Assembly (NCBI RefSeq): GCF_018417475.1
Contig: NZ_CP054856.1
Span: 2,511,001 to 2,575,000 of the forward strand
Direction of reading: 5' to 3'
DNA length: 64,000 nucleotides
Origin: Novosphingobium decolorationis
Lineage (GTDB): Bacteria; Pseudomonadota; Alphaproteobacteria; Sphingomonadales; Sphingomonadaceae
The position numbers and the translations under genes are program-made. A model generated the notes under the pieces. The model saw nothing but the letters and a program-made list of their open reading frames with translations, was not told the origin of the DNA and ran no database searches. Shown piece by piece: positions 3,879 to 58,510 of this stretch (its first letter is position 1; each line of letters opens with the position of its first letter).

Positions 3879-3994
3879 CAAGGGGCCATCGCCCCTTGGA
3901 CCCCGGAAATGGGCGACCTCACCCCATTAGTCCCACGTAGCGCGACCAAGTTGAGCTCGACCATTTTGGGAGCCCGAGGGCGATGGCCCTCGGA
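3879..3994 (-). repeat. Intergenic palindromic repeat, copy 1 (B and A modules, reverse)
   Basis: The B hairpin, AAGGGGCCATCGCCCCTT in this orientation, lies at 3879-3899. The A hairpin CCGAGGGCGATGGCCCTCGG lies at 3974-3993, with a spacer containing GACCTCACC between them. The copy starts 15 bp after the smc stop codon. The same modules recur at eleven other places in the window. Confidence 0.9.
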
Positions 3995-4032
3995 AATGTC
4001 CTTTCATCTTTCATCCAAAACACTTGCCCTCC

Positions 4033-4066
4033 CGATCAATTGGCTTAATGGCATACCAATTGATCG
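4033..4066. promoter_or_regulatory. Perfect 11-bp inverted repeat, candidate operator
   Basis: CGATCAATTGG at 4033-4043 is matched exactly by CCAATTGATCG at 4056-4066, with a 12-bp spacer. It stands about 110 bp upstream of the GTG of the DUF3598-like gene and is AT-rich compared with its surroundings. A dimeric repressor or activator site is the simplest reading. No regulator gene adjoins it, so the binding protein is unknown. Confidence 0.5.
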
Positions 4067-4175
4067 CACCCCGGATAGCCCCGCAAAGAGCTCTCCCCCG
4101 GTGCCGCGATCCTCCAAGAATAGGCCCACGTTGCCACGAAGGTGGCGCGCAAGATCCCCCGGAAGGAGAGTACCC

Positions 4176-4700
4176 GTGACCGACCTGATCAACCAGCCCG
4201 GCGTGCGCGAAGCCATGCCGATCCTCGCCTCGAACGAAGGTGTGTGGGAAGGCTGGTACCGCTATTACGATGCCAAGACCGGCGAACTCGTCGACCAGCA
4301 CCGCTCGCGCCTGATCTGCCGCCTGATCCACAAGGACGGCGTCGATCACTACCACCAGACCAACCACTACTTCTGGGACGACGGCCGCAAGGAAGTGCGC
4401 GACTTCCCCGCGGTCTACAAGGACGGCCGCATCTGGTGGGACAACGATCTCATCAAGGGCTGGGCCGCCGAGATGCAGCCCGACGACTTCAACCGCTCGA
4501 CCTGCCTCAACTGGACCCGCAAGAACGAGCCGGGCATCTACCTCTACGAGATGATCCAGAACAACGACGCGCGCACCCACCGCTCGCGCACCTGGCAGTG
4601 GTTCCGCGACGGCATCTGCTACCAGCGCACGCTGATCGACGAGAAGTTCATCACCCCCGACTGGCAGAACTTCACCAACGAGGACGCGCCCGACGTCTGA
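4176..4700 (+). CDS. DUF3598-like domain protein
   Basis: This is a soluble 174-aa protein with no signal peptide, rich in Trp, Tyr and charged residues. Its opening ILASNEGVWEGWYRYYD resembles the N-terminal strand of calycin-like DUF3598 proteins. No catalytic motif is recognised and no function is assigned. The GTG start was chosen because GGAAGGAG lies 6-13 bp upstream and the frame further 5' is only read-through from smc. An inverted repeat at 4033 suggests individual regulation, and a good terminator follows at 4727. Confidence 0.7.
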   Translation: MTDLINQPGVREAMPILASNEGVWEGWYRYYDAKTGELVDQHRSRLICRLIHKDGVDHYHQTNHYFWDDGRKEVRDFPAVYKDGRIWWDNDLIKGWAAEMQPDDFNRSTCLNWTRKNEPGIYLYEMIQNNDARTHRSRTWQWFRDGICYQRTLIDEKFITPDWQNFTNEDAPDV

Positions 4701-4726
4701 GGCTCCACCTCGTCGAGACGCACGAA

Positions 4727-4755
4727 GGGGCTGCGCCGATGCGCGGCCCCTTTTT
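4727..4755 (+). terminator. Rho-independent terminator
   Basis: GGGGCTGCGC pairs with GCGCGGCCCC across a four-base loop, with one G-U pair, and is followed by TTTTT. It ends the DUF3598-like transcript. The A tract on the left is too weak for it to be called a strong terminator for soxR on the opposite strand. Confidence 0.8.
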
Positions 4756-4764
4756 CGTGAACGC

Positions 4765-5205
4765 TCAGTCGGGGGCCAGCACCAGACGCGGCCCCGGGCC
4801 TTCCCGCCCCTTCACATCCTCGGCGTTGTAGAGGTGGCACTTGGCAAGACTGAGGCAGCCGCAGCCGATGCACCCGTCGAGCCGGTCGCGGGTGCGCTCG
4901 AGCATGGCGATCTGGTCCTCGATCGCCCGGCGCATCGAACGGCTGATGCGCGCCCAGTCCTGTGCACTCGGCGTGCGGCCCTGCGGCAGGCGCGCCAGTT
5001 CCCGCTCGATCTCGGCAAGCGGCAGCCCCAGCTTCTGCGCGATGAGGATGAAGCTCACGCGCCGGATGTCCGAGCGCAGAAACCGCCGCTGGTTCCCGCT
5101 CGTGCGCAGCGCCTGGAGCAGGCCCTTCTCCTCGTAGAAGCGGATCGCGGAGGTCTTTACGCCCGTGCGCCGGGCCAGTTCGCCGATGGTGATGAAGCTG
5201 GGCAT
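4765..5205 (-). CDS. soxR: Redox-sensitive transcriptional activator SoxR
   Basis: SoxR is a MerR-family dimer whose [2Fe-2S] cluster senses redox-cycling compounds and superoxide. This 146-aa protein has the winged HTH at residues 5-45 (IGELARRTGVKTSAIRFYEE), a dimerisation helix at about 85-110, and the cluster ligands Cys112, Cys115, Cys117 and Cys123 in CIGCGCLSLAKC. The start at 5205 gives the usual N terminus; the frame extends further but that part runs into a repeat. A SoxR-type operator lies in front of the divergent VOC gene, suggesting a one-target local regulon. Confidence 0.96.
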   Translation of the reverse strand: MPSFITIGELARRTGVKTSAIRFYEEKGLLQALRTSGNQRRFLRSDIRRVSFILIAQKLGLPLAEIERELARLPQGRTPSAQDWARISRSMRRAIEDQIAMLERTRDRLDGCIGCGCLSLAKCHLYNAEDVKGREGPGPRLVLAPD

Positions 5206-5245
5206 CGCGGTCTCCGGGAAGATGGAAAAAGGAACAGGCATGATT

Positions 5246-5265
5246 CCGAGGGCCATCGCCCTCGG
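5246..5265 (+). repeat. Intergenic palindromic repeat, copy 2 (A module only)
   Basis: The sequence CCGAGGGCCATCGCCCTCGG has 8-bp arms and a CATC loop. It is followed by the GGCTCCC and GTCGAGCTCACC spacer seen in longer copies, but the B module is missing. It lies between the divergent soxR and VOC genes, an unusual place for this family. Confidence 0.85.
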
Positions 5266-5328
5266 GCTCCCAAAACGGTCGAGCTCACCTTTGTCGCGCC
5301 GCCTTCACACAGGACGCACATTTCCCGC

Positions 5329-5359
5329 TTGATCTCAACCTAACTTGAACTTGCACTTT
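5329..5359 (+). promoter_or_regulatory. SoxR-type promoter/operator in front of the VOC gene
   Basis: TCTCAACCTAACTTGAAC at 5333-5350 matches the enterobacterial soxS operator CCTCAAGTTAACTTGAGG at 13 of 18 positions. It sits between TTGATC (-35, 5329-5334) and a weak -10 CACTTT (5354-5359). The 19-bp spacing is typical of promoters that MerR-family activators open by DNA distortion. The divergent neighbour is soxR itself. The site is seen in the sequence; the regulation is inferred. Confidence 0.72.
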
Positions 5360-5403
5360 CTCCAAGCCGGTTGATTCGCCGGTGACACAACAGGAGAAAA
5401 GTC

Positions 5404-5775
5404 ATGGCCCGTGGCCGTCTGGAGCACGCCAACATCACCGTCAGCGACATTGATCGCTCGTCCCGCCTGCTGCAGAGCCTGCTCGGCTGGCACGAGCGCT
5501 GGCGCGGGCCCGCCATCAACGGCGGCGAGACGATCCATGTCGGCGAGGCGTTCAGCTACATGGCGGTCTATACCGACCGCAAGGCGCACGAAGGGTTCGC
5601 CAAGGGCCAGCCGCTCAACCACATCGGGCTGGTGGTGGACGATCTCGACGCGGCCGAGGCGGTGGTGATCGCAGCCGGGCTCACCCCGTTCAACCATGGC
5701 GACTACGAGCCGGGGCGGCGCTTCTATTTCTTCGACTGGGACCACATCGAATTCGAGGTGGTCAGCTATGAATGA
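5404..5775 (+). CDS. VOC (glyoxalase/dioxygenase superfamily) protein
   Basis: This 123-aa single-domain protein has paired beta-alpha-beta-beta-beta modules typical of the vicinal oxygen chelate fold. Candidate metal ligands are His8 (LEHANITV), the His in LNHIGLVVDD and the Glu in HIEFEVVS. Members include glyoxalases, dioxygenases and antibiotic-binding proteins, and the substrate cannot be read from the sequence. The start has a good ribosome-binding site (CAGGAG). The SoxR-type operator upstream suggests a role in coping with redox-active compounds. Confidence 0.88.
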   Translation: MARGRLEHANITVSDIDRSSRLLQSLLGWHERWRGPAINGGETIHVGEAFSYMAVYTDRKAHEGFAKGQPLNHIGLVVDDLDAAEAVVIAAGLTPFNHGDYEPGRRFYFFDWDHIEFEVVSYE

Positions 5776-5783
5776 GCCCGTGC

Positions 5784-6458
5784 TCAGAGAAGCCGGGGCA
5801 TGGTCTCGTCCGCGTCCCCGTCGGGCTCCGCGCCCTCTTCGGCCGACGCTGGCAGATCGCCTGCGCCGGTCCATAGCCGCCGTGTTCGCTCCACCGTCAG
5901 CGGCGCCGGGGAGGTAACGCACAGACCAAACGCCTCTTCCGGCGCGGCCTCGATCCAGCGGGACCAGTCGCGCCGGGGGAGGAGGACGGGCATGCGGTCA
6001 TGGACATCGACCATCTGTTCGCAGGCGGGTGCCATGACCAGGGTGTAGACCCGGCCCCATTCCGGGCTGTCGCGCCACAGGCCCGCAACCGCGAAAGTGT
6101 CCACCCCCTCGATCCCGTACCAGGTGCGCGTCATCTGCCCCGCGTTCCCCTCGGGCTCGGCCCAGCGTGTGACGGGCACCAGGCAGCGGCGGTGGACGAA
6201 GCTGTCCTTCCAGAAACGGGTGTGCAGCTTGTCGTCGCGCGCGTTGGTGACGGGCTTGGGCTTGAGGGGCTGGCCCTGCCGGCCCTTCAGCACGAGCGGA
6301 AAGCCCCAGGTCATCGTCTGCGCGCGCCCCTCCGCAACGACAAGGCCGGAGTAACCGGGATAGACTTCCTCGGCGAAGTTGGCACCTTCCTGGGGCAGAA
6401 CCTCGAACAGGGCGGCGACCTCGGCGGTGCCCTTGGTCATGCGGTAGAGATTGCACAT
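5784..6458 (-). CDS. SOS response-associated peptidase (SRAP/YedK/HMCES family)
   Basis: SRAP proteins form a covalent thiazolidine link with abasic sites in single-stranded DNA and shield them during replication. The 224-aa sequence begins MCNLYR, leaving the catalytic Cys2 at the N terminus after Met removal. The other expected active-site residues are visible: Asn72 in TNARDD, Glu101 in AEPEG and His153 in DVHDRMPVLL. The start is fixed by the requirement for Cys2. It lies 21 bp downstream of ubiA on the same strand. No LexA box was recognised. Confidence 0.93.
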   Translation of the reverse strand: MCNLYRMTKGTAEVAALFEVLPQEGANFAEEVYPGYSGLVVAEGRAQTMTWGFPLVLKGRQGQPLKPKPVTNARDDKLHTRFWKDSFVHRRCLVPVTRWAEPEGNAGQMTRTWYGIEGVDTFAVAGLWRDSPEWGRVYTLVMAPACEQMVDVHDRMPVLLPRRDWSRWIEAAPEEAFGLCVTSPAPLTVERTRRLWTGAGDLPASAEEGAEPDGDADETMPRLL

Positions 6459-6479
6459 GATGGCCGTTGGGGCGCGTCC

Positions 6480-7430
6480 TCAGACGACCCCGGCGTTGCC
6501 CACCACCCAGCAGGCCAGCACCATCACGAAACCCAGATCCCGGTTCGAGCGGAACCGCGCCAGCGCGTTGTCGCCGTCTGCTGTGTCGAGTGTCACGACC
6601 TGGAAGCCCAGGTGCATCGCGACGGGCACCAGCGCCATCAGGCCCACCCAGTCCGGGCGCACCGTCCAGAAGGCGAGCCCCCAGAACGCCACGGCCAGCG
6701 CGTAGAAGCCACCGACGCCCAGCCGCACGTGCTCGCCCAGCCGCCGCGCAGACGAACGGATGCCCACCAGCGCATCGTCCTCGCGGTCCTGGATGGCGTA
6801 GATCGTGTCGTAGCCGATGCACCACACGATGGAGCCTGCGTAAAGCGCGGCCAGCGCGCCCAGCTGGTCCTGCCGGATCTCGATCCAGCCGACCAGCGCG
6901 CCCCAGGTGAAGACCAGGCCAAGCCAGGCCTGCGGCCACCAGGTGATGCGCTTCATGAACGGATAGGCCGCCACGAGCGCCACGCTGCCCAGCGCCACCA
7001 GCTGCGCTTCAAGGCGCAGTTGGAAGAGAACCACAAGGCCCACCGCACAGAGCAGCAGGAGCCAGCCCCAGGCCGCCTTCTTGCTCACCCGACCACTTGC
7101 CACCGGGCGCTGCGCGGTGCGCGCCACCTTGCGGTCAAGGTCGGCATCGACAATGTCGTTGAGCACGCAGCCCGCGCCGCGCATCGCAATCGAGCCCACC
7201 AGCAGCCAGGCGATGAGCCCCAGGCGCTGTTCGCCGCCCGCCAGCATCACGCTCCACGCGCAGGGCCAGAACAGCAGCCACCAGCCGATAGGACGGTCGA
7301 AACGGGCCAGCATCGCGTAATCGCGAAGCTGGGGCGGCAGGGCCGCGACGAGGCCACGTTGCTGGCTGTCGGGGACGAAGGTAGGATCACTCACCCCCCG
7401 GGAAATACCGGATCGGGACGCCCCTGTCAT
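6480..7430 (-). CDS. ubiA: 4-hydroxybenzoate polyprenyltransferase
   Basis: UbiA attaches the polyprenyl tail to 4-hydroxybenzoate in ubiquinone synthesis at the inner membrane. The 316-aa protein has about eight to nine membrane segments. Both Asp-rich motifs that bind the Mg-diphosphate are present: NDIVDADLDRKVARTAQRP from residue 91 and DTIYAIQDREDD from 208. The first 30 residues are variable, and GTG codons inside them could be the true start. It is divergent from the M20 peptidase gene. Confidence 0.95.
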   Translation of the reverse strand: MTGASRSGISRGVSDPTFVPDSQQRGLVAALPPQLRDYAMLARFDRPIGWWLLFWPCAWSVMLAGGEQRLGLIAWLLVGSIAMRGAGCVLNDIVDADLDRKVARTAQRPVASGRVSKKAAWGWLLLLCAVGLVVLFQLRLEAQLVALGSVALVAAYPFMKRITWWPQAWLGLVFTWGALVGWIEIRQDQLGALAALYAGSIVWCIGYDTIYAIQDREDDALVGIRSSARRLGEHVRLGVGGFYALAVAFWGLAFWTVRPDWVGLMALVPVAMHLGFQVVTLDTADGDNALARFRSNRDLGFVMVLACWVVGNAGVV

Positions 7431-7544
7431 GTCCTGCGTGTCCCATGCACACAGCCTTGCCGCTTTGGCGTTGCGCCAGGTGCCTGAACGCGCAACAACA
7501 CAGGCTCGCTCACAACGCGATCACGAACGGGGGACACGAAAACG

Positions 7545-8954
7545 ATGCGCTTGAACACACTCGCCTTTTGCACCGCGATGGGAAGCGTCCTGGCACTCGC
7601 CACACCGCCCGCGATGGCCCAGGCGCCCGAGACGCCCGCGGGCCGCGAAGCGCTCACCGTCCTCCAGGAAGCCGTCGCCATTCCGACCGTTCAGGGCCGC
7701 GGACAGGTCCCCGTGCTCGCCGCCAAGCTCAAGGCGCGCCTGCTCGACGCCGGATTCGCCGAGGACGAGGTGACCTTCGTGCCCCAGGGTGAGACCGGCT
7801 ACCTCCTCGCCCGCTACCCGGGCCGCGACCGCAAGGCGCCGGTCACCGCGATCATCGCGCACATGGACGTCGTCGAGGCCAAGCCCGAGGACTGGGAGCG
7901 CGATCCCTTCAACCCGGTGATCGAGGACGGCTACCTGTTCGGGCGCGGTTCGCTCGACAACAAGGCCGGGCTCTCCATCGTGACCGCGACGATGATGAAA
8001 CTGCGCCGCGAGGGCTGGGTCCCGGCCCACGACATCGTGCTCGGCTTCTCGGGCGACGAGGAAACCCAGATGGCGACCACCGCCGCCATGGCCAGCGCCA
8101 TCGTCCAGGAGGCGGGGAAGGTCGATCTCGTCCTCAACGCCGATTCGGGCGGCGGCACGCTCGACGAGGCGGGCCAGCCCTTCGTCTACGAGGTCCAGGC
8201 GGGCGAGAAGACTTACGCCGACTACAAGCTGACGCTGACCGATCCCGGCGGCCACTCCAGCCGTCCGGGCGCGACCAACGCCATTGCCGCCATGAGCGCG
8301 GCGATGGAGAAGATCTGGGCCTACAAATTCCCGGTCACCGTCAGCCCGCTGACCAAGGCCTACTTCGAGAGCAGCGTGGCTGCTGCCCCCGCCGAAGTGG
8401 CGCCCGCGATGCGCGCGCTCATCGCCGATCCCACCGACGCGAAGGCCGCCGCCACGCTCTCCGCGCGGCCCGAATATATCGGCCTCATCCGCACGACCTG
8501 CGTGCCCACCATGATCGAGGGCGGCCATGCCCCCAACGCGCTGCCCCAGTCGGTCAGCGCCAACGTCAATTGCCGCATCTTCCCCGGCACCTCCCGCGCC
8601 AAGGTGCAGGAGACGCTGGCGCAGGTGATCGCCGATCCCGAGATCACCTGCGCCTTCCAGGACAACGGCACGCTCGAATCGATCGAGAGCCCCTTGCGCA
8701 GCGACGTCCTGAAAGCCGTCGAGGTCGCCGTCCACGAACGCGCGCCCGGGCTCTCCATCGTTCCGGGCATGAGCGCGGGCGCCACCGATTCGATGCACTT
8801 TCGCTCCAAGGGCATCCCCGCCTTCGGCGTCTCGGCCGTGTTCATGGAGCCCAAGGACGAATTTGCCCACGGCCTCAACGAACGCCTGCCGCTCGCCACG
8901 CTCGACCCGGCGGTGAAGCAGTGGGAGACGCTGCTGCGTACGCTGTTGAAGTGA
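7545..8954 (+). CDS. Secreted M20 family metallopeptidase
   Basis: This 469-aa protein has a signal peptide (hydrophobic 5-22, likely cleavage after AMA at 25). M20 zinc-binding motifs follow: AHMDVV (His106, Asp108), GRGSLDNKAG (Asp138) and GFSGDEE (Glu172/Glu173), and a dimerisation domain lies around 215-330. Members are di-zinc amino- or carboxypeptidases or deacylases acting on short peptides or N-acyl amino acids; here the site would be the periplasm. The gene stands alone and is followed by two repeat copies. The family call is secure; the substrate is unknown. Confidence 0.92.
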   Translation: MRLNTLAFCTAMGSVLALATPPAMAQAPETPAGREALTVLQEAVAIPTVQGRGQVPVLAAKLKARLLDAGFAEDEVTFVPQGETGYLLARYPGRDRKAPVTAIIAHMDVVEAKPEDWERDPFNPVIEDGYLFGRGSLDNKAGLSIVTATMMKLRREGWVPAHDIVLGFSGDEETQMATTAAMASAIVQEAGKVDLVLNADSGGGTLDEAGQPFVYEVQAGEKTYADYKLTLTDPGGHSSRPGATNAIAAMSAAMEKIWAYKFPVTVSPLTKAYFESSVAAAPAEVAPAMRALIADPTDAKAAATLSARPEYIGLIRTTCVPTMIEGGHAPNALPQSVSANVNCRIFPGTSRAKVQETLAQVIADPEITCAFQDNGTLESIESPLRSDVLKAVEVAVHERAPGLSIVPGMSAGATDSMHFRSKGIPAFGVSAVFMEPKDEFAHGLNERLPLATLDPAVKQWETLLRTLLK

Positions 8955-8975
8955 GCAAATAAGAAGAGGGAGTTT

Positions 8976-9090
8976 CCGAGGGCCATCGCCCTCGGGCTCC
9001 CCAAATGGTCGAGCTCAGCTTTCTCCTGCCGCCCTGGCCGAGAACTCCGAGCCCTCCGATTCTGGGGTAAAGGGGTAATAACCCCTTGAA
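8976..9090 (+). repeat. Intergenic palindromic repeat, copy 3 (A plus degenerate B)
   Basis: The A hairpin is perfect at 8976-8995, 22 bp after the peptidase stop. The B position (9061-9090) keeps the flanks GGGGT and CCCCTTGAAAA. The usual GCGATGGC core is replaced, leaving AAGGGGT-AATA-ACCCCTT, which still forms a hairpin. Confidence 0.85.
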
Positions 9091-9181
9091 AAGATATTTC
9101 CTTCACGCCCTTCCCCTCTGGTTTCTGGCGGACTCTCAGCCAAGATCACAGGCCAAAGGTAAACTGGACGGGCTGCGGAGC

Positions 9182-9201
9182 CCGAGGGCGATGGGCCTCG
9201 G
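9182..9201 (-). repeat. Intergenic palindromic repeat, copy 4 (A module, reverse)
   Basis: CCGAGGGCGATGGGCCTCGG is the A hairpin read on the opposite strand, with one substitution relative to the consensus. It is preceded by GGAGC and followed by GGACCTCACC, as in other reverse copies. It faces copy 3 across about 90 bp. Confidence 0.8.
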
Positions 9202-9285
9202 ACCTCACCTTCTTCAATCTTTCCCTTTGATCTCCCCTGCCCGCCCCCTCTAAGGCGCCCCCATCTGCTGCAACGAGATCCGCCC

Positions 9286-10038
9286 ATGCCCGCCACTCCC
9301 GCCTGGCCGCCGCGTTCGGCCCCCCGTCTGTTCGTTTCCGGCCCGCTCGCCGAGGGGCAGGAGCTGACCCTTGACGGCAACCCGGCGAACTACCTCGCGC
9401 GGGTCATGCGCGTGGGCGCGGGCGATGCCGTCATCCTGTGCGACGATGTGACCGGCGAATGGGCGGCCGAGGTGCTCGACGCGGGCAAGCGCCACGTCAC
9501 CCTCGCCCTTCGTGACAAGCTGCGCGACCGCGAGGCGGTGCCCGATTTCTGGCTCTGCGCCGCGCTTCTGAAGAAGCCCAACTTCGATCTCGTGCTGGAA
9601 AAGGCCACTGAACTGGGCGTCGCCCGGATCCAGCCGGTACTGACCCGGCGCTGCGTTGCCGACAAGCTCAACCCCGAGCGCGCGCAGACGATCGTGTCCG
9701 AAGCGGCCGAGCAGTGCGCGCGCACCGCGCTGCCCGAACTGACAGGCCCGATGAAGCTCGACGCGCTGCTGGCCGACTGGCCGGAGGACCGCGCCCTCTT
9801 CTTTGCCGACGAGCAGGGCGGGGAACCGGCCGCCGCACAATTTGCCGCGCACAGCGGCCCCGCCGCGCTGCTGGTAGGCCCGGAAGGCGGCTTTGACGAT
9901 GCCGAGCGTGCCGCCATCCGCGCCCATCCCGCCGCCCGCGCGATCACGCTGGGCCCGCGCATCCTGCGCGGTGAAACCGCCACGATCGCGGCCTGCGCGG
10001 TGTGGATGGCAACGCGGGGCGACTGGTCCACCGTGTGA
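9286..10038 (+). CDS. rsmE: 16S rRNA (uracil1498-N3)-methyltransferase
   Basis: RsmE methylates N3 of U1498 in helix 44 of 16S rRNA using S-adenosylmethionine. The 250-aa protein has an N-terminal PUA-like domain (about 1-85) and a SPOUT methyltransferase domain with the knot motifs LLVGPEGGFDDAE (near 206) and LGPRILRGETA (near 230). The ATG start follows AACGAGATC, a weak ribosome-binding site. It is upstream of gshA on the same strand, an arrangement common in related genomes. Confidence 0.96.
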   Translation: MPATPAWPPRSAPRLFVSGPLAEGQELTLDGNPANYLARVMRVGAGDAVILCDDVTGEWAAEVLDAGKRHVTLALRDKLRDREAVPDFWLCAALLKKPNFDLVLEKATELGVARIQPVLTRRCVADKLNPERAQTIVSEAAEQCARTALPELTGPMKLDALLADWPEDRALFFADEQGGEPAAAQFAAHSGPAALLVGPEGGFDDAERAAIRAHPAARAITLGPRILRGETATIAACAVWMATRGDWSTV

Positions 10039-10114
10039 ATACCTAGCCATATTGTATGCCTGGAAACAAAAATGGGGCTGGCGCTAAGGCCTTCGCATCT
10101 CTACCTCCGGGCCC

Positions 10115-11488: not shown

Positions 11489-11503
11489 TCCGGCCGGGCC
11501 GCC

Positions 11504-12871: not shown

Positions 12872-12977
12872 GCCAAGAGAGCTACCCGCAATTGGTTAAA
12901 GCGACCGAAACGGAGGAAATCGGCGCGAAGAGAGGATAAGGGCGCATGTCCGGAGCCGAACACGCGCCCCACCGTCC

Positions 12978-14357: not shown

Positions 14358-14380
14358 GCCTTTATCCTTACAGGTAGATT

Positions 14381-20632: not shown

Positions 20633-20747
20633 CCGAGGGCCATCGCCCTCGGGCTCCCCGAACGGTCCACCTCACCTTGCGCGTGCCACGGTGGCTGAAA
20701 GAGGCAAGGTCGCCGATTTTGGGGTCAAGGGGCGATGGCCCCTTGAA
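20633..20747 (+). repeat. Intergenic palindromic repeat, copy 5 (A plus B)
   Basis: The A hairpin at 20633-20652 is 28 bp after the dehydrogenase stop. The B hairpin at 20725-20746 is 28 bp from the stop of the convergent lipoprotein gene. The spacer carries CACCTCACCTTGCG and AAGGTCGCCGATTTT. This is a typical complete short-form copy filling a convergent gap. Confidence 0.9.
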
Positions 20748-22322: not shown

Positions 22323-22634
22323 CGGTGTTCTCCTCGATTGCGGGACCCGGGCCCGGTGGACGGGGGCCTATCCGCGGTACGCATTCAGGTTTAGAGCACT
22401 GAAGCTGAACGGAGTGCAACGGCGCTGTCAGATTCCCCTTTTGCGACGAAATGATACGATTGCGGGGGTGAGATGCGCCCCAAACGGCCAAACTCACCTC
22501 CCCGCGCCACGGCGGCGCAGAGAGGTGAACTCGCCAATTCGGGGGTCAAGGGACGATGGCCTCTTGAAAAAGTCCTCTCTTCCCTATTCTTCTGGCCCCT
22601 GCCTGCCCCCCCCCCCTCCTCGAAAGTCCCCCCG
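22323..22634. other. Intergenic region between the glycine-zipper gene and rarD
   Basis: This 312-bp divergent gap contains the B half of an intergenic repeat (22478-22567). A homopolymeric C run at 22608-22616 lies just before rarD. No gene was recognised. An in-frame extension upstream of rarD lies mostly inside the repeat and is not considered coding. Confidence 0.75.
22478..22567 (+). repeat. Intergenic palindromic repeat, copy 6 (spacer plus degenerate B)
   Basis: The B hairpin at 22546-22567 carries a G-to-A change in each arm (AAGGGACGATGGCCTCTT). The upstream spacer keeps AACTCACC, the CGCCACGG block and AGGTGAACTCGCC as in other copies, but the A module is absent. Confidence 0.8.
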
Positions 22635-28930: not shown

Positions 28931-29123
28931 CCGAGGGCCATCGCCCTCGGGCTCCCCGAATTGTCCAGCCCAGCTGTCGCCCGGCGCGTTGGCGGATATG
29001 GAGGCGCAAAGCCCCTCTAAAATCATCCGATGCGTGGATGCGTGCCCTCTCCTTGCGCAAACTGCGCGTGCGGAGAAAGCCAAGGGTGCCGAGTCCGGGG
29101 TCAAGGGGCGATGGCCCCTTGAA
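28931..29123 (+). repeat. Intergenic palindromic repeat, copy 7 (long form A-C-B)
   Basis: A hairpin at 28931-28950 and B hairpin at 29101-29122 are separated by a long spacer with a third hairpin module, GAGGCGC-AAA-GCCCCTC at 29001-29017, followed by AATCATCCGATGCGTG. It fills the convergent gap between ygfZ and a GNAT gene. The same long spacer occurs in copy 8. Confidence 0.9.
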
Positions 29124-32650: not shown

Positions 32651-32835
32651 CCGAGGGCCAACGCCCTCGGGCTCCCCGAACTGTCCAGCGCAGCAGTCTC
32701 CCGCCGCGTTGGTGGATATCGAGGGGCAAAGCCCCTCTAGAATCATCCGATGCGTGCCCTCACCTTCCGCAAGCTGCGGGCGCTGAGAAAGACGAGGCTG
32801 CCGATTCCGGGGTCAAGGGGCGATGGCCCCTTGAA
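32651..32835 (+). repeat. Intergenic palindromic repeat, copy 8 (long form A-C-B)
   Basis: The A hairpin at 32651-32670 has an AACG loop variant, the C hairpin GAGGGGC-AAA-GCCCCTC lies at 32721-32737, and the B hairpin at 32813-32834. The spacer matches copy 7 for most of its length, including GTTGG-GGATAT and AATCATCCGATGCGTG. B ends 29 bp from the moaE stop. Confidence 0.9.
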
Positions 32836-35993: not shown

Positions 35994-36556
35994 AAAGAAG
36001 GAAGATGACCGAGGGCCATCGCCCTCGGGCTCCCGGAATCGGAGAGGCTTGGGTGGGACCGGAGCGGCCGCTAGCGCGTCCACACCGCGATGGAGGCTTG
36101 AACACTCGAGATCCATGCCAACGAGCAGTGAAGCTGCGAATAAGAACGCGATGGACAGTGGCCAGGGCGAACCTTGCACTTTGCAAAAGAGATGATTGCA
36201 AAAATGTCGGGGGGCGTTGGCAATCTGAAAAGACAATCGTGACGGATGGGGCGTTGCCTTTGCATTGACATCAAAATGCCTAAGGGATGCGATGACTTCA
36301 ATAGACAGGCGCTGTCAGCCTGCATTCCTCCCGAGCCGTTCGTTTTGCTAACAGCACGGATCTCCCGTGTGCTTACCTATTCCAAGAAAGTTCGCATTCC
36401 GCGCAATTAGAGCAACCTTCTTTTGGGCATTTCGGTATTCTGCCATAGGAGGGCGCAGGATGTTCAGGGATCTTGCTGGTTTTTCCTGCACATTATTGGC
36501 GGCCGGATAGAGTGTGGCGAAAGGATTGAATCATTAAGTGGATTTATCGTGCGTCG
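35994..36556. other. Intergenic stretch entering an AT-richer region
   Basis: This 563-bp stretch opens with an A-module repeat at 36009-36028. From about 36040 the base composition shifts to noticeably more A and T, and short open frames here have no recognisable homology. No promoter was identified with confidence. It is the left flank of an island-like segment extending to about 38265. Confidence 0.7.
36009..36028 (+). repeat. Intergenic palindromic repeat, copy 9 (A module only)
   Basis: The A hairpin is perfect and 16 bp after the stop of the small hypothetical gene. GGCTCCCGGAATC follows, but the sequence then departs from the family and no B module is present. Confidence 0.85.
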
Positions 36557-41445: not shown

Positions 41446-41559
41446 CAAGGGGCCATCGCCCCTTGACCCCAAAATCGGCGACCTCACCTTTCCCGGCCAC
41501 CGCAGCGCGCGAAAGGTGAGGTAGACAGTTTGGGGAGCCCGAGGGCGATGGCCCTCGGA
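41446..41559 (-). repeat. Intergenic palindromic repeat, copy 10 (B and A, reverse)
   Basis: The B hairpin at 41446-41466 and the A hairpin at 41539-41558 flank a spacer that is itself palindromic: ACCTCACCTTTC (41481-41492) matches GAAAGGTGAGGT (41511-41522) exactly. The whole copy is thus nearly symmetric. It lies between coxC and surf1 in an otherwise continuous minus-strand run. Confidence 0.9.
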
Positions 41560-44387: not shown

Positions 44388-46073
<1,686 letters not shown>

Positions 46074-47894: not shown

Positions 47895-47900
47895 GCCACA

Positions 47901-47923: not shown

Positions 47924-47966
47924 GTCCTCGCCGTTTGTCCTCCCGCAACGCAAAGGCCCGCCTCCC

Positions 47967-48973: not shown

Positions 48974-49392
48974 TCATCGGCCTGGGTTCGGACCTGTGCA
49001 ACATCGAGCGCATCGCCAATTCGCTCGAACGGTACGGGGACCGCTTCCTCAATCGCGTCTTCACCGAGCAGGAGCGCGCCAAGGCCGCGCGGCGCCCACA
49101 CACCGTCGCAGGCACGCTGGCCAAGCGTTTCGCGGCCAAGGAAGCCTATTCCAAGGCGGTCGGGACCGGCTTCAAGCAAGGTGTCTTCATGAAGGACATC
49201 GGCGTCGTCAACGCCCCGTCCGGCGCGCCCACGCTGGCGCTGTCGGGCGGCGCGAAGGAGCGGCTTGATGCGATGACCCCTGCAGGGCACGAAGCCGTGG
49301 TTCACCTCACGCTCACCGACGATCACCCATGGGCGCAGGCTTTCGTCGTCATCGAGGCGCGCCCGCTCGCCCCTTGCGCCGCTACCGAGTAG
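48970..49392 (+). CDS. acpS: Holo-[acyl-carrier-protein] synthase
   Basis: AcpS transfers 4'-phosphopantetheine from CoA to acyl carrier protein. The 140-aa protein begins with GTG ([15 protein letters not shown]), with the catalytic Asp in [10 protein letters not shown], and has [16 protein letters not shown] with the Mg-binding Glu. Length is normal. Translationally coupled to the preceding membrane protein, and followed by lepB. Confidence 0.95.
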
Positions 49393-49410
49393 AGTTTCTT
49401 GTCCCAGACC

Positions 49411-51524: not shown

Positions 51525-51582
51525 GGCCCACTCTCTGCGGCGACGCTTGACCGATCCGGCCGAACCGGCAACAGGAGAGACC

Positions 51583-52746
51583 ATGGCCCGCAAGTTCCTC
51601 TACGTCGTCGCCGTGTGCCTCGTGCTCTTCGTGGCCGCACGCCTCGCGCTCACCTTCTGGTCGGACGAGCTGACCGAGCTCACCTTCGTCCCCTCGGGCG
51701 AGTTCGAGACCCGGCCCGCCAAGCCCGAAGGCGACTGGGACGCGCCCGCGATGTGGGTTGCGCGGCCCGGCCTTCAGAACGATCCCGCGCAATGGCTGCC
51801 CGAAGGGGCGAGCACGGCACCTGTGGGCTCGGCCCGCGCGGCCATCTTCTTCGTGCATCCCACCAGCTACATGGAGAAGGCGCACTGGAACGCGCCGCTC
51901 GACGACGAGGACGCGAACAATCGCGCCGCGCTCTTCACGCAGACCATGGCCAGCGCCTTCACCGCCGCGGGCGATGTCTGGGCCCCGCGCTATCGTCAGG
52001 CCACGATCGGCGCCTTCTTCACCGCCCGGCCCGAAGCGCAGCAGGCGCTCGACCTTGCCTATGGCGACCTTGAGAGCGCCTTTGCCGTGTTCCTGCGCGA
52101 AAACCCGGAAGGGCCCATCGTCCTTGTCGGCCACAGCCAGGGCGCGCTCTTGCTGCGCCGCCTGCTGCGCGACCACGTGGCGGGCACGCCCGTCGCCGCG
52201 CGCGTGGCCGCAGCCTACCTGCCCGGCTGGCCGGTCTCGCTTGACCATGACCTGCCGAAGATGGGCCTGCCCCAGTGCACCAGCGACAACCAGGCGGGCT
52301 GCGTGCTTTCCTGGCTCTCGGTCGCCGACCCGGCCGACACCTCGGCACTGACGGCGGGCTACCTGCGCCAGACCGGGCTTGACGGGCAGAAGCTGGATGG
52401 CAGCCCGTTCCTGTGCACCAACCCGCTGATCGGCGCGCAGGACGGCGCGGCGGATGCGCGCGCCAACACCGGCACGCTGGTCCCCGACTTCGCCGAGAAG
52501 ACCGGCACGCTGGCCCCGCAGGTCGTGCCCGCGGCCTGCGAGCTCGACAACTTCCTGCACATCGGCGCGCCGCCCAAGCTGGAGCTGGGCGATTACGTGC
52601 TGCCGGGCAATAACTACCACGTCTACGACATCCTCCTGTTCTGGGAGAACCTGCGCGCCGACGCCCGCAAGCGCCTGACCGCCTGGCTCGCCGCGCAAGA
52701 CGAAGCGCCCGAGGAAAGCGCCCCCAAGGTGAAGGCCGTCGGCTGA
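51583..52746 (+). CDS. DUF3089 domain protein (alpha/beta-hydrolase-like)
   Basis: This 387-aa protein has an N-terminal signal or anchor helix (about 4-22), a region with [16 protein letters not shown] typical of DUF3089, the serine nucleophile motif [10 protein letters not shown] near 183, and a C-terminal [18 protein letters not shown]. The fold is alpha/beta hydrolase; a periplasmic esterase or lipase is plausible, substrate unknown. The ATG has ACAGGAGAGACC upstream. The stop overlaps the ruvX ATG by one base. Confidence 0.88.
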
Positions 52747-53219
52747 TGAGCACCGTCACCACCAGCGCGCTCGACTTTCGCGACGCCCTGCCCGATGCGG
52801 GCGCGCTCCTGGGCCTTGACCTCGGCACCCAGACCATCGGCACCGCCTTCTGCGATGCGGGCTGGCGCTTCGCCTCGCCCGGCAAGACCCTGAAGCGTGG
52901 CAAGTTCGGCGCCGACAAGGCCGCGCTCTCCGCCCTTGTCGCGGAGCGTTCGATTACCGGCATCGTCATCGGCCTGCCGCTCAACATGGATGGCTCGGAA
53001 GGCCCGCGCTCGCAGTCGAGCCGCGCCTACGCGCGCAACCTCGCCGCGCTGGGCCTGCCCATCCTGCTGTGGGACGAGCGCTGGTCGACCATGGGCGCCG
53101 AACGCGGCCTACTTGACCAGGACATGAGCCGCGCCAAGCGCAAGGAGCGCATCGACAGCGCAGCCGCCGCCGTCATCCTGCAGGGCGCCATCGACGGACT
53201 GGCCGGGGGCATGTTCTGA
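52746..53219 (+). CDS. ruvX: Holliday junction resolvase-like RuvX/YqgF
   Basis: RuvX/YqgF is an RNase H-fold nuclease that processes pre-16S rRNA 5' ends in E. coli and has been proposed as a resolvase. The 157-aa protein has [12 protein letters not shown] with the first Asp near 25, [29 protein letters not shown] with Glu, and [11 protein letters not shown] with the last Asp. All acidic residues are present. It is translationally coupled to the DUF3089 gene. Confidence 0.94.
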
Positions 53220-53337
53220 GCCGTCCCGGCGTCCCGCACATCGGATTTTAACGATTTCAGTTCCAAGCCCTGCAATGTTCCGGAAATTGACAGGAACGCG
53301 CCTCTAGGCGCCGCTGTCACGAAGACGGGGTTGCAAG

Positions 53338-53895
53338 ATGGGTTTGGGCATACTCGCCGCCGCGGCCGTGGCGGTATCGGGCAGTGGCGGTGCGACCGCT
53401 ATCGGCAGCGCGGCAGACAGGTCGGGCCTGGCCGATGTCGTCCTTGCCATCCACAACCAGGAACGCGCCGCCGTCGGTGCCCCACCGCTGCGCTGGAGCC
53501 CCGCCCTGGCCCGCGAGGCGCAAGGCTGGGCGCAGCGGCTCGCGGCCACCGGCACCTTCCGCCACGACACCTCCAACCGCGACACCGGCGAGAACCTGTG
53601 GATGGGTACGCGCGGCGCCTACAGCCTCGCGGACATGGTCGCAGGCTGGGCCCACGAGAAAACCGCGCTGAGCGCCCGGACCTCCTGGCAGGCCAACTTC
53701 CCGCGCGTGGGACACTACACGCAGATGATCTGGGCGCGCACGAGCGCGGTCGGCTGCGCCCTCGCCCAGAGCGCCCACCACGAATACCTCGTGTGCCGCT
53801 ACGATCCGCCGGGCAACGTGTGGAACGAAAGCCCCTACACCACGGCGGAGCTGGCCTCGAACCGGCGTTTCGCCGCATCCGGCGCGCGCGAGTAG
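53338..53895 (+). CDS. CAP/SCP family secreted protein
   Basis: This 185-aa protein has a short hydrophobic N terminus (signal) and a CAP domain with IHNQERAAVG, TGENLWMGT, VGHYTQMIWARTSAVGCAL and YLVCRYDPPGNVWN. The His and Glu of the CAP cavity are present. Bacterial CAP proteins are extracellular or periplasmic, with roles from lipid binding to unknown. It ends 17 bp before a full repeat copy. Confidence 0.92.
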   Translation: MGLGILAAAAVAVSGSGGATAIGSAADRSGLADVVLAIHNQERAAVGAPPLRWSPALAREAQGWAQRLAATGTFRHDTSNRDTGENLWMGTRGAYSLADMVAGWAHEKTALSARTSWQANFPRVGHYTQMIWARTSAVGCALAQSAHHEYLVCRYDPPGNVWNESPYTTAELASNRRFAASGARE

Positions 53896-53911
53896 AAAGA
53901 AGAATATTTAT

Positions 53912-54026
53912 CCGAGGGCCATCGCCCTCGGGCTCCCCGAACTGTCGAGGTTTCCTTCCGCGCGCCACGTAGCTTGTGAAAGGTGAGGTCGCCCATTTTG
54001 GGGTCAAGGGGCGATGGCCCCTTGAA
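53912..54026 (+). repeat. Intergenic palindromic repeat, copy 11 (A plus B)
   Basis: The A hairpin lies at 53912-53931 and the B hairpin at 54004-54025, with spacer GTGAAAGGTGAGGTCGCCCATTTTGGGG near B. It occupies almost the whole convergent gap: 17 bp after the CAP gene stop and 4 bp before the siroheme-gene stop. Confidence 0.9.
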
Positions 54027-54029
54027 AAG

Positions 54030-54824
54030 CTAATCCCTTGGCGCGCGCATCACCACGGTCAGCCCCGCATCGGCCTCGACCGCAGCGCCATTCTCGATCC
54101 CATGGCGTACCGCATCAGCGCGGGCCCGGACGAGGAGCGCTTCGGGGATACCCGGTTCACAGGCCAGCGTGTCGGCCTCACCGATGAGGCGGGCCTGGCG
54201 CAGGGTCAGGTCGTCGGGGTCAAGGCTGGTGAGCGCGATCTCGAACAGGCCGCGCGCCTGTTCCTGCACCGTGCCCGAGAGCCATTGCTCGACCTTGTCC
54301 GCGCTGTCCTCGCGCAAGGGGTCGAGCGGACCTCCTGCAGTCAACGCAGCATCGATGGCGCGGCGCCGGTCGGCCGCAGCGGGCCAGCGGCTGCGCAAGG
54401 CCCCGCGCGCATCGCGCAAGGCCCCCGCCAGTTGGCCGAGCGACTGCGGAAGCAGCGTTTCAAGGCGCAGGCGCAAGTGCTTGGCCAGCCCCGCCGAGGC
54501 CCCGCCGGTCCCGAAGGCCACGAGGACCGGCGTGCGGTCAAGGATCGAGGGCACCGTGAAATCGCAGAGCGAGGGCCGGTCGGTGACGTTGACGAGCAGG
54601 CCCGCCCCCCGCGCGCGGCGCGCATCGCGCGCGGCAAGCTCTTCCTCCTCGTGCGCGATGAAGACCAACCGCGCGCCGCGCAGCAGCCCTTCGCGAAAAT
54701 CGTCGATCACAAGGCCGCCCGCCCGCTCGACCAGGCGGCGCTTGGCAAGAGCGGCCTCGCCGCGTCCGAGGACGAGGACGGGCCGGTCCCGGACGGCGTG
54801 GAAGAGCGGCAGATTGTCGATCAT
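54030..54824 (-). CDS. Precorrin-2 dehydrogenase / sirohydrochlorin ferrochelatase (CysG N-terminal type)
   Basis: This 264-aa protein resembles the N-terminal half of CysG, which oxidises precorrin-2 and inserts iron to make siroheme for sulfite and nitrite reductases. Visible are VLVLGRGEAALAKRRLVERAG with the NAD-binding loop, NVTDRPSLCDFTVPSIL near 78 and FGTGGASAGLAKHLRLRLE near 104. The methyltransferase half is absent, so a separate CobA is expected elsewhere. It is downstream of lysA on the same strand. Confidence 0.9.
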   Translation of the reverse strand: MIDNLPLFHAVRDRPVLVLGRGEAALAKRRLVERAGGLVIDDFREGLLRGARLVFIAHEEEELAARDARRARGAGLLVNVTDRPSLCDFTVPSILDRTPVLVAFGTGGASAGLAKHLRLRLETLLPQSLGQLAGALRDARGALRSRWPAAADRRRAIDAALTAGGPLDPLREDSADKVEQWLSGTVQEQARGLFEIALTSLDPDDLTLRQARLIGEADTLACEPGIPEALLVRARADAVRHGIENGAAVEADAGLTVVMRAPRD

Positions 54825-54859
54825 CGCCGCTCCTTACCAAGCCAGCGCGAGGGGCTCAA

Positions 54860-56119
54860 TCAGACGAGGAAGTCCGGCACGCTCTCGGCCGCGAGGATCG
54901 TCTCGGGCTCGATCCGACCTGCAACCAGCGCCCAGGCATCGCCATCGACCATGACTTCGGGCACCAGCGCGCGGCTGTTGTAGGTGTTGGCCATCGTCGC
55001 GCCATAGGCGCCCGCGGTACGGAAGACGACGAGATCGCCCGCCTTGACCACGTCGACCTCGCGGTTCTTGGCAAAGGTGTCCGAGCTCTCGCAGATCGGA
55101 CCCACGACATTGGCCGTGAAGGTCTCACCAGTCGGCTTGACCGCGGCAAAGTCGTGCCAGGCATCGTACATCGCCGGACGGGCAAGGTCGTTCATCGCCG
55201 CATCAACGACGATCCAGGGCGCGGAGGTCCCCTCCTTGACGCGGATCACCTCGGAGACGAGCACGCCCGCATTGCCCGAGATCACGCGGCCCGGCTCGAA
55301 CATGACGGTCACGTCCCAGCCCTTCGTCACCTCGACCACCATCGCGCCGTAATCGGCGGGCGTGGGCAGGCTCTCGTTGCCCTTGTAGGGAACGCCGAGA
55401 CCTCCGCCCAGGTCCATGTGGGTGACCGAAAGGCCCTGCGCGCGCAGCTCCTCCATCAGCGCGCCCATCTTCACGAAAGCCTGGCGCGAGGGTTCGAGGT
55501 CGCTGATCTGGCTGCCGATGTGGACGGCAAGCCCGCGCATGTTGAGGCCCTCGAGCGCGGAGAGGCGCGCGTAGATCCCGGCGGCGCGGTCATAGGAGAC
55601 GCCAAACTTGTTCTCGGCCTTGCCGGTCGAGATCTTCTCGTGGGTGCGCGCATCGACGTCCGGATTGACGCGCAGCGCGCAGGTGGCCGTGGCGCCGAGT
55701 TCGGAGGCGATGGCCGCCAATTCGACGCCCTCTTCCTCGCTCTCGAGGTTGAACTGGCCGATCCCGGCCTTCACCGCGGCGGTCAGCTCGCGCTTCGACT
55801 TGCCCACGCCCGAGAAGACGATGTCTTCAGCCGGCATTCCGGCGGCCAGCGCGCGGTTCATCTCGCCTTCCGAGACCACGTCCGCGCCATAGCCTTCCTT
55901 CGACAGCAGGCGCAGCACGGCCAGGTTCGGGTTCGACTTCACCGCGAACGCGATGTGCACACTCGGCAGGCCCGAGAGCGCCTCGCGAAAGACGCGGGCG
56001 TGGCGCTCGAAGGTCGCGCGCGAGTAGACGTAGACGGGGGTGCCGACGTCGCGGGCGATGTCGGCGAGCGGCACCTGCTCGGCGCAAAGCTGGCCGTCGA
56101 TCAGCTGAAAATGGTCCAT
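54860..56119 (-). CDS. lysA: Diaminopimelate decarboxylase
   Basis: LysA decarboxylates meso-diaminopimelate to lysine using PLP. The 419-aa protein has the PLP lysine in HIAFAVKSNPNLAVL near 61, the Gly-rich DLGGGLGVPY block, the active-site Cys in VGPICESSDTF near 350, and GAYGATMANTYNSR near 379. It is preceded by a small lipoprotein and argH, a common arrangement. Confidence 0.97.
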   Translation of the reverse strand: MDHFQLIDGQLCAEQVPLADIARDVGTPVYVYSRATFERHARVFREALSGLPSVHIAFAVKSNPNLAVLRLLSKEGYGADVVSEGEMNRALAAGMPAEDIVFSGVGKSKRELTAAVKAGIGQFNLESEEEGVELAAIASELGATATCALRVNPDVDARTHEKISTGKAENKFGVSYDRAAGIYARLSALEGLNMRGLAVHIGSQISDLEPSRQAFVKMGALMEELRAQGLSVTHMDLGGGLGVPYKGNESLPTPADYGAMVVEVTKGWDVTVMFEPGRVISGNAGVLVSEVIRVKEGTSAPWIVVDAAMNDLARPAMYDAWHDFAAVKPTGETFTANVVGPICESSDTFAKNREVDVVKAGDLVVFRTAGAYGATMANTYNSRALVPEVMVDGDAWALVAGRIEPETILAAESVPDFLV

Positions 56120-56187
56120 GGGTGTCCTGTCGGAAAATTCGGTGTGGGCCCGCCACCGGGGCGGGCCGCTGCATGAGTGAGGCGTGG

Positions 56188-56445
56188 TTACTGCGGATCC
56201 ACCGCGCGCTCGGGCGGGGGAAGATCGAAGGGATCGTCCTCGCGTTCCTCCGAGCGCGTGCGCAGCTCGACGCTGCGTTTGGGAATGGCGATGGTCGGGA
56301 TGGTGAGCAGTTCGCGCGGCGCGGGTTTCTGCGCCCGCCCGTACGGCGCCGGAGGCAGGCTCGCGCCTTCCTTGACCGCAAGATCCGCGCGCTGGCCGCA
56401 GGCCGCCAGCGCCGCCAGGACCAGAAGAGCCGCTACGTTGCGCAT
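56188..56445 (-). CDS. Small lipoprotein, LptM-like by position
   Basis: This 85-aa protein has a lipobox AALAACGQ with Cys16, then a short hydrophilic mature region with PPAPYGRAQKPAPRELL and an acidic end. LptM (YifL) lipoproteins, which help mature the LPS transport protein LptD, are similarly small and often adjoin lysA or dapF. Position between argH and lysA and size fit, but the CGxKGPL core is only loosely kept, so the assignment is tentative. Confidence 0.65.
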   Translation of the reverse strand: MRNVAALLVLAALAACGQRADLAVKEGASLPPAPYGRAQKPAPRELLTIPTIAIPKRSVELRTRSEEREDDPFDLPPPERAVDPQ

Positions 56446-56467
56446 TCCCGTGTCTCCTCGCCTGTCC

Positions 56468-57883
56468 TCAGGCCATGCCGAGCGCGGCGCGGGCCTCGGC
56501 CACGCGCGCGCGCACCTGGTCGGGCGCGGTGCCCCCGTGCGACATGCGCGCGGCAACCGACGCCTCGACCGAGAGCGCCTTGAATACGCGCTCGTCGATG
56601 CGGCTGTCGATCTCTTTCAGGTCTTCAAGCGGCAGCTGGTCGAGCGCGACGCCGCGGGCCTCGGCCAGCTTCACCGCCGCGCCCGTGATGTGGTGCGCCT
56701 CGCGGAAGGGAATGTCGCCCTCGCGCACCAGCCAGTCGGCAAGGTCGGTCGCGGTGGCAAAGCCCATCTCGGCGGCCTGGCGCATGCGCTCGGTCTTGAA
56801 GTCGCTGTCGGCGACCATGCCGGTCATCGCCGCGATCGAAAGCGCGAGCAGGCCGTGCGCCTCGAAGACGGGCGGCTTGTCGTCCTGCATGTCCTTGGAA
56901 TAGGCGAGCGGAAGGCCCTTCATGGTCATCATCAGGCCGGTGAGGCAGCCCGCGATGCGGCCCGCGTGGCCGCGCACCAGCTCGGCGGCGTCCGGGTTCT
57001 TCTTCTGCGGCATGATCGAGCTGCCGGTCGAGAGCGAATCGGCCATGCGCACGAAGCCGAAGGGCTGGCTCGCCCAGATGATGAACTCTTCGGCGAGGCG
57101 CGAGAGGTGCAGCGAGCACTGCGCCGCGGCCATCAGGTAGTCGAGCGCGAAGTCGCGGTCCGAGACGGTGTCGAGGCTGTTCGCGGTCGGCCCATCAAAG
57201 CCCAGCGCCTTTGCGGTCATCGCGCGGTCGATGGGGAAGCCCGTGCCCGCGAGCGCCGCGGCGCCCAGCGGCGAGCGGTTCATGCGCACGCGGTTGTCGG
57301 CCAGACGCGAACGGTCGCGCGCGATCATCTCGTAATAGGCCATCAGGTGATGGCCCAGCGTCACGGGCTGCGCGGTCTGGAGGTGGGTAAAGCCGGGCAT
57401 GATCGAGGCCGCGTGGGTTCCGGCCTGCGCCACGAGCGCCTTCTGCAGCGCCTCGAGCCCCGCGTCGACCTCGTCGATCGCCTCGCGCACCCAGAGCTTG
57501 AAGTCGGTCGCGACCTGGTCGTTGCGGCTGCGCGCGGTGTGGAGGCGCCCCGCGACCGGGCCGATCAGTTCGGCCAGACGCGATTCGGTGGTCATGTGGA
57601 TGTCTTCGAGGTCCCAGTTCTCCGGAACGCCGTTCGCTTCGTACTCGGCGGCGACCTGGTCGAGACCCTCGGTGATCGCCTTGGCATCCTGCGCAGTCAC
57701 GATGCCCTGCGTGCCCAGCATCGCGACGTGCGCCTTGCTTGCCGCGATGTCCTGACGCCACAGTGCCTTGTCGAAGGGAATCGACGCGTTTATCTCGCGC
57801 ATGATCGCCGACGGTCCTTCCGCAAACCGTCCGCCCCACATCTGGTTGGAGCCCCCGCCCGTGCCATTGTCCAAATCGCTCAC
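56468..57883 (-). CDS. argH: Argininosuccinate lyase
   Basis: ArgH cleaves argininosuccinate to arginine and fumarate. The 471-aa protein starts with GTG at 57883 and contains [13 protein letters not shown] near 14, [14 protein letters not shown] near 118, and the family signature [12 protein letters not shown] near 290, with the catalytic Ser. Its 5' end overlaps the start of the divergent TlpA-like gene by about 20 bp, which is unusual. An ATG at 57844 would avoid the overlap but would shorten the N terminus. Confidence 0.95.
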
Positions 57884-58472
57884 GTCGCTCGTCCTGTATT
57901 CGTTTGCCGGGTCCTGTGCCCTGCTGCTCGCGGGCTGCGATAGGCAAAGCGCACCCGACGCGCAACCAACAGCTTCGCAGGCTCCGGCAGGCGGGGGCGC
58001 CGAGGCGCCCACCGTGCCCACAGCGCAGGGCAAGCTGGACCGTTCGCACAAGGGCGAGCCGATGCCCGTGATTGCGCTCAGCGACCCCAGCGGCGAAAGC
58101 CTCGATCTGACTTCGCTCAAGGGCAAGCCGGTGCTGGTGAACCTGTGGGCAACCTGGTGCGCGCCGTGCGTGGAGGAACTGCCCACGCTCAACACCCTGA
58201 TCGGGCGCGAGGACGACCTGGGCGTCACCGTCCTGCCCATCTCGCAGGACGCGGGCCAGAGCGGCAAGGTCGTCGAGATCCTGCGCCGCCGCAAGCTCGA
58301 CAACATCGAGCCCTGGATCGACGAGCAAGCCGACCTCTCCTTCCAGTACGGCGGCAACCTGCCCGTCACGATCCTGTTCGACGCCAAGGGCAAGGAAGTG
58401 TGGCGCTGGACCGGCGGCAACGACTGGACCAGCGCGGAGGCCCTGAAGCTGATCGCCGAAGCGAAGTCGTAA
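57861..58472 (+). CDS. TlpA-like thioredoxin-fold lipoprotein
   Basis: This 203-aa protein has a lipobox LLLAGCDRQ after an N-terminal hydrophobic stretch, a low-complexity Ala/Pro linker, and a TlpA-type thioredoxin domain with [15 protein letters not shown] (CxxC) and the cis-Pro region NLPVTILF. It would act as a periplasmic disulfide reductase, for example in cytochrome maturation. Start is GTG 57861 or TTG 57867, both inside the argH 5' end; no start downstream leaves a signal sequence. Confidence 0.88.
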
Positions 58473-58490
58473 GAAGACAAAGGCGAGACT

Positions 58491-58510
58491 CCGAGGGCCA
58501 CCGCCCTCGG
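58491..58510 (+). repeat. Intergenic palindromic repeat, copy 12 (A module only)
   Basis: CCGAGGGCCACCGCCCTCGG has one loop change from the consensus and lies 19 bp after the stop of the TlpA-like gene. Only the A module remains before ada. Confidence 0.85.

Follow-up and report, generated by a model that had tools for sequence, protein, structure and literature searches.

The bacterial interspersed mosaic elements (BIMEs) and ERIC-like repeats of enterobacteria are palindromic sequences that lie between genes, at their 3' ends. A related arrangement is that of the REPINs, in which two inverted hairpin repeats (repetitive extragenic palindromes, REPs) and the spacer between them form the dispersed unit, with singlets being decayed doublets (Bertels & Rainey 2011, PMC3116915). 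In the Alphaproteobacteria, CGTC REPs are described, which form doublets at 3' ends and have no transposase (Di Nocera et al. 2013, PMC3733652). The subject of this paper is a repeat of Novosphingobium decolorationis, first seen in a stretch of 64,000 nucleotides of its chromosome (positions 2,511,001 to 2,575,000 of NZ_CP054856.1, hereafter the window). It is a REP-doublet or REPIN-like family which carries the tag of neither described superfamily and, in this genome, is not accompanied by a match to the REP-associated transposase (RAYT) of the GTAG kind. It is a non-coding, formerly mobile short element whose insertion is old, and whose hairpin stems probably remain under selection in this lineage.

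With the BIMEs and ERIC-like repeats the element shares its intergenic position, its place at 3' ends and its palindromic form; it differs in having been found only in Novosphingobium in the present searches. The traits of miniature inverted-repeat transposable elements (MITEs) are also present, namely terminal inverted repeats without coding capacity, dispersed copies and unoccupied sites in a relative. With the CGTC REPs (PMC3733652), the likeness extends to stems of 8-9 bp with loops of 4-5 nt, to a prevalence of inverted doublets, often of two unlike units, without a dedicated transposase, and to a location near gene 3' ends and between convergent genes. Since that family already consists of alphaproteobacterial doublets at 3' ends without a transposase, those traits are not new. 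In contrast to the CGTC REPs, however, none of the 112 hairpins and none of 45 half-elements has a CGTC, TGTC or CCTC tag, most stems have no AT pairs at the foot, the feet are GATT-like and GCTC/ACCC, and purine and pyrimidine tracts flank the whole. The inverted doublet with its spacer, dispersed here as 49 linked pairs, is that of the REPINs and GTAG REPs (PMC3116915), but there is no GTAG tag, and no Y1/RAYT match in the source genome, in two other Novosphingobium genomes that carry the family (G002 and G030), in the sister strain Novosphingobium sp. BW1 or in N. profundi F72 (the SMC protein of the window is 93% and 81% identical to those of BW1 and F72, respectively). No description of this repeat family was found in the literature searched; as far as that search reaches, the missing tag, the purine and pyrimidine ends, the long shared arms and a contrast between lineages are new.

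Anatomy and placement of the element

A preliminary description, made from the window alone, recognised two hairpin modules, A and B, and took them for one hairpin unit in opposite orientations with diverged outer arms, in a REP/BIME-like architecture. Both points are borne out over 464 contiguous kb, comprising the window and 20 further stretches, in which genes were called with our own codon-usage script and are therefore approximate. The two strands together yielded 112 hairpins (63 A and 49 B) in 62 elements. Among them are 49 pairs of neighbouring hairpins that start less than 200 bp apart: 42 pairs span 112-115 bp, with A at one end, B at the other and the orientation fixed, while the other 7 have a longer spacer and measure 183-208 bp, A standing at both ends in two of them. 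In other words, modules A and B are the two ends, or arms, of one imperfect palindrome of ~113 bp. The plan is the same from either end: a purine-rich tract, a GATT-like foot, an 8-bp stem (central GGGC-CATC-GCCC), YCCC and a spacer arm. The whole unit is ~150 bp long, running from a purine-rich end through hairpin A, a half-palindromic spacer and hairpin B to a pyrimidine-rich end. Of eight examples folded as RNA, six give two separate hairpins and the other two a single long one. Complementarity between left and right tracts is not clearly higher within an element than between elements (7.93 against 7.55 pairs, p=0.10). Spacers have a mean identity of 0.703 across copies, from which it follows that the copies descend from one sequence. 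The source genome (G000; 4.75 Mb in two contigs, the window lying on the 4.64-Mb contig) contains 120 exact module A hairpins and no A read backwards.

Copies had been thought to lie between genes rather than inside them, and 61 of the 62 elements do: 34 are in 67 convergent gaps, 22 in 242 tandem gaps and 5 in 69 divergent gaps, with one on a doubtful gene start. The densities are 2.54, 0.56 and 0.22 per kb, respectively, although the gaps owe part of their length to the elements. The hairpin foot falls no more than 40 nt from the stop codon in 53 of 68 convergent ends; in tandem gaps the upstream stop is at a median distance of 28 nt and the next start at one of 108 nt. The 20 nt past stops that face an element have a purine fraction of 0.64 (90 ends), against 0.46 at 177 ends without one. 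That these flanks were a pre-existing target was considered and rejected, as the element-free gaps of N. profundi are not purine-rich after the stop (0.42 versus 0.61, 16 ends); the tracts seem, therefore, to arrive with the element. Taken over the tracts as a whole, transitions are about as frequent as transversions (58:54 and 45:46), and the same holds at fourfold sites (4331:4589). The ten strongest purine positions are 0.92 purine here and 0.93 in BW1, with 31 changes within purines and 17 others, and the eight pyrimidine positions show 14 within-class and 20 other changes, all of which is at best weak evidence that selection may act on tract composition.

Along the chromosome, 46 of 100 exact A copies among the matches listed (120 in total) fall at 2.25-3.0 Mb, 12 distant 20-kb samples hold 9 hairpins at 5 sites, and copies are absent from the 112-kb contig. 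Near 2.78 Mb (stretches L018-L020) the GC skew changes sign, from negative to positive, so that the replication origin is probably nearby; A shows no replichore bias (53 of 100 copies among the matches listed). Two tandem arrangements were also seen. In stretch L249 (8057-11070) a unit of ~968 bp is repeated fourfold head-to-tail with an A hairpin in each and a full element in the last copy; no transposase that would make this unit an autonomous copy was recognised in it by eye. In stretch L250 (7095-7714) four elements follow one another in 169-bp steps. In a further genome, G031 (C2 67450-68000, L227), the convergent gap that holds an element in G000 contains a doublet, which by eye we take to be a CGTC-type REP; if so, both families share a niche.

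Distribution, age and the fate of the stems

Of 61 genomes searched with a 16-base core pattern, 11 matched, every one of them among the 37 of Novosphingobium. A covariance model (at most 35 candidates scored per genome) found the family in 39 of 99 genomes of the genus, whereas in a sample of the bacterial family, with 17 candidates per genome and strict filters, it matched none of 198 genomes besides G000. The profile search of related genomes thus places the repeat in other Novosphingobium, and there the stems covary, over 12-13 genomes. In a set picked for perfect stems the letters differ from species to species (GCGAGGGC, CCGGGGGC, GAAGGGGC and GCAGGGGC among others); among the model-chosen copies pairing holds in 94.6% of cells, and both partners have changed in 18 of 22 pairs, values that shuffled and slid controls fall far short of. 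The outermost pairs excepted, G-U pairs are few, which is what a DNA palindrome, or a stem that is used in both directions, would be expected to show. Judged by these alignments, the terminal stems keep their pairing, not their letters, between species.

Single genomes add detail. In G002, B hairpins (15 counted, from 20 of the best model matches) have loops that depart from the G000 consensus at 0.567 per site, and 12 of 15 altered stem pairs are Watson-Crick. The complementary CATC and GATG loops, which it had been suggested could kiss in RNA, are accordingly not conserved; their complementarity is a trivial consequence of the copies being inverted. The A hairpins of G002 (19 counted) differ at 0.023 per site in stems and 0.145 in loops, with all 7 altered pairs not Watson-Crick, and in G030 all 20 model-chosen matches have exact stems. 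Phages gave no match and viral contigs no exact pattern match; among plasmids one record matched, from Novosphingobium MBES04. This 256-kb plasmid (AP026900.1, L269) has three element-related places, one of which adjoins a gene with the annotation SbcCD subunit D.

The age of the insertions can be read from two relatives. In fetched stretches of BW1, 39 of the 62 sites could be paired and were read by eye; none of the 39 (one mis-anchored) is cleanly empty. Several BW1 copies miss part of one hairpin, and two consist of a single hairpin joining the outer halves of both ends, which looks like deletion between the two ends of the element. Of 157 gaps collinear with N. profundi, 23 are occupied here, and 17 of these have no hairpin in N. 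profundi and 6 have one, absence being judged by a pattern match that a degenerate copy could escape. Only 1 of the 134 gaps unoccupied here holds an element in N. profundi. The idea that copy sites may be empty in relatives therefore holds for N. profundi but not for BW1. At one of the 17 sites, 2750379, the element is also absent from six further relatives; the source gap there and stretches L217, L218, L220-L223 and L229 have a TTGAC-N4-ATCAA-like box upstream of the next gene, which resembles an FNR site. Dispersal is real, in that homologous copies lie at many unrelated places, and the simplest reading places the spread of most copies between the N. profundi split and the BW1 split, with near-stasis thereafter.

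Source genome and BW1 differ at 19% of fourfold sites, and 28 orthologous element pairs have identities of 0.756 in the spacer and 0.896 and 0.919 in the hairpins. The hairpins are nearer the consensus in the source at 26 of these sites and in BW1 at none (2 ties); the spacers are nearer in the source at 17 and in BW1 at 9 (2 ties). When sites are chosen by their spacer, A is exact at 36 of 55 in the source and at 9 of 45 in BW1, the corresponding counts for B being 28 and 10. When only hairpins with no more than 5 mismatches are taken (for A, 49 of 55 in the source and 39 of 45 in BW1), mismatch per site in A is 0.008 in stems and 0.051 in loops in the source (p=0.0002), and 0.074 and 0.096 in BW1 (p=0.40); the A stems of the two genomes differ at p=2e-11. 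B is less sharp, with 0.032 in stems and 0.069 in loops in the source and 0.088 and 0.081 in BW1. On the simplest reading, the stems look selected for pairing at fixed sites here, with the constraint relaxed in BW1. Such a contrast would speak for a function in place or a trans-acting factor, not for spread alone.

Copies in the window

The window has 11 sites of module A at up to 3 mismatches and 7 of module B, where shuffling gives expectations of 0.05 and 0.08 matches. All twelve positions of the preliminary description carry real copies; two of them, 8976 and 9182, belong to a single compound site, leaving 11 loci. Ten of the 11 are intergenic, as had been said of all, and the other, at 5246, overlaps only the doubtful start of a MerR-family gene. 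Full A...B composites stand at 3879, 20633, 28931, 32651, 41446 and 53912. That at 3879..3993 (minus strand; hairpin B 3880-3897, hairpin A 3974-3993) lies 14 nt past the smc stop, and the one at 20633..20745 (plus strand) is in a convergent gap; the BW1 counterpart of each has collapsed to one hybrid hairpin. Composites with long spacers occupy 28931..29121, in a convergent gap, and 32651..32833, 30 nt from the moaE stop and likewise convergent (both plus strand). The full composite at 41446..41558 (minus strand) lies in the tandem gap between COX3 and SURF1 genes, and that at 53912..54024 (plus strand) fills the convergent gap between CAP-domain and NAD-binding genes.

The remaining copies, all on the plus strand, are incomplete or compound. 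At 5246..5265, on the start side of the MerR-family gene, the hairpin A is indeed present, as the truncated relic of an element that is full at the equivalent place in BW1. The compound site at 8976..9201, 21 nt downstream of an M20 peptidase gene, is made of A (8976-8995), a B variant AAGGGGTAATAACCCCTT (9070-9087) and a reversed A (9182-9201). The element at 22478..22566 was correctly placed but has lost its A side; its recognisable hairpin is at 22548 (B-type, 22547-22566), and the inner arms are retained. Single A hairpins are found at 36009..36028, 15 nt past a predicted gene end, and, in diverged form, at 58491..58510, 18 nt past a redoxin gene. In an Rfam search of the window the sole match above the gathering score was a tRNA.

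Origin and maintenance of the repeat

Taken together, we favour, at a probability of roughly three in four, a non-autonomous REPIN-like repeat which underwent a burst before the BW1 split, followed by near-stasis, whose mobilisation was guided by its hairpins and whose stems are now under selection. The hairpin ends would have been recognised by a trans-acting recombinase on single-stranded or extruded DNA, as in REP/REPIN systems. At fixed sites in the source genome the stems would still be under selection, most likely because the element is transcribed at mRNA 3' ends, where the stem could block 3' exonucleases; alternatively, a trans-acting protein may bind the palindrome. In BW1 the constraint on the stems would have relaxed.

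Three other origins have to be weighed. Bidirectional terminators, evolved or spread by ending transcription between convergent genes, would account for the strong enrichment in convergent gaps and beside stop codons, but there is no U-run directly after either hairpin, and by a crude scan terminators are about as frequent in convergent gaps that hold an element (8 of 34) as in those that do not (4 of 23). At 2739706, moreover, the element sits between the stop and a terminator that is kept, element-free, in G005, G006, G087 and G121 (by eye). These counts and this site rule out termination as the leading account, and we consider it improbable as the origin of the family. A GTAG-type REPIN family mobilised by a RAYT since lost, or unrecognised, is equally improbable. 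The doublet architecture and niche are those of REPINs (PMC3116915, PMC3733652), a single hairpin can be what is left of a doublet (site 5246 against the full BW1 element), and a Y1 match is present in 8 of 39 genomes with model matches. Genomes with the family do not, however, have Y1 more often than those lacking it (20 of 60). The element is absent at six fetched Y1 loci, only one of which (G029) comes from a genome with model matches, PF01797 matches are missing from the five genomes named above, neither a GTAG nor a CGTC-type tag is found at any of the hairpins or half-elements, and the lack of replichore bias of A also counts against it.

Classical MITEs, that is, internal-deletion derivatives of an ordinary transposon moved through terminal inverted repeats of ~50 bp, would have the long imperfect inverted repeats without coding capacity and the presence and absence at collinear sites that are seen here. 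No parent element was found in the 464 kb, however; the sole A...B pair ~2 kb apart (2702728-2704956, L015) is, by eye, an element split by an apparent IS630-type insertion in its spacer. Its ends, furthermore, keep pairing rather than letters between species, phages and viral contigs gave no match of the kinds described, and no target duplication was seen by eye, although just 17 unoccupied sites, rather diverged, were there to compare. A MITE origin is thus unlikely.

That no target duplication was seen also weighs against hairpin-guided mobilisation followed by selection on stems, as do several other points. No mobiliser was found, either by Y1/PF01797 profile searches or by the search for a parent in the 464 kb. 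Only at two sites were further relatives consulted to tell a gain of elements from their loss in N. profundi. One covariation set was chosen for perfect stems, while the model-chosen set takes many elements twice, once per strand, and is aligned to fit the structure. Within the species pair of source and BW1, 51 of 68 altered stem pairs (28 element pairs) are broken in one genome, so there is little compensation. The BW1 branch is ~1.3-1.6 times longer (8 of 10 outgroup loci yielded counts, e.g. 565 versus 355), and its faster overall evolution therefore explains part of the hairpin asymmetry. The 28 sites used to train the spacer model had first been found through source-genome hairpins, and very short gene conversion may be what keeps the stems.

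It is possible, if tentative, that a trans-acting factor (a hairpin-binding protein, a recombinase or the balance of nucleases) is active here, and perhaps in G002 and G030, and has been lost or changed in BW1. SbcD was considered as the factor behind stem decay, with a sub-cut-off match in BW1 and none here, but it amounts to no more than a lead, since G030, with its many perfect hairpins, also has such a match, and neither G002 nor N. profundi does. If such a factor does exist, BW1 would amount to a natural knock-out, its dozens of inherited hairpins decaying jointly, and a comparison of gene content across the genus could reveal the factor.

GTAG-type REPs are explained by their tag and their RAYT; here, a large family within a single genus occupies the same niche behind genes with neither found. 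The sister genomes share nearly all comparable sites, and yet the stems are kept in one and are decaying in the other, such that service to the host, as against the element's own spread, becomes testable.

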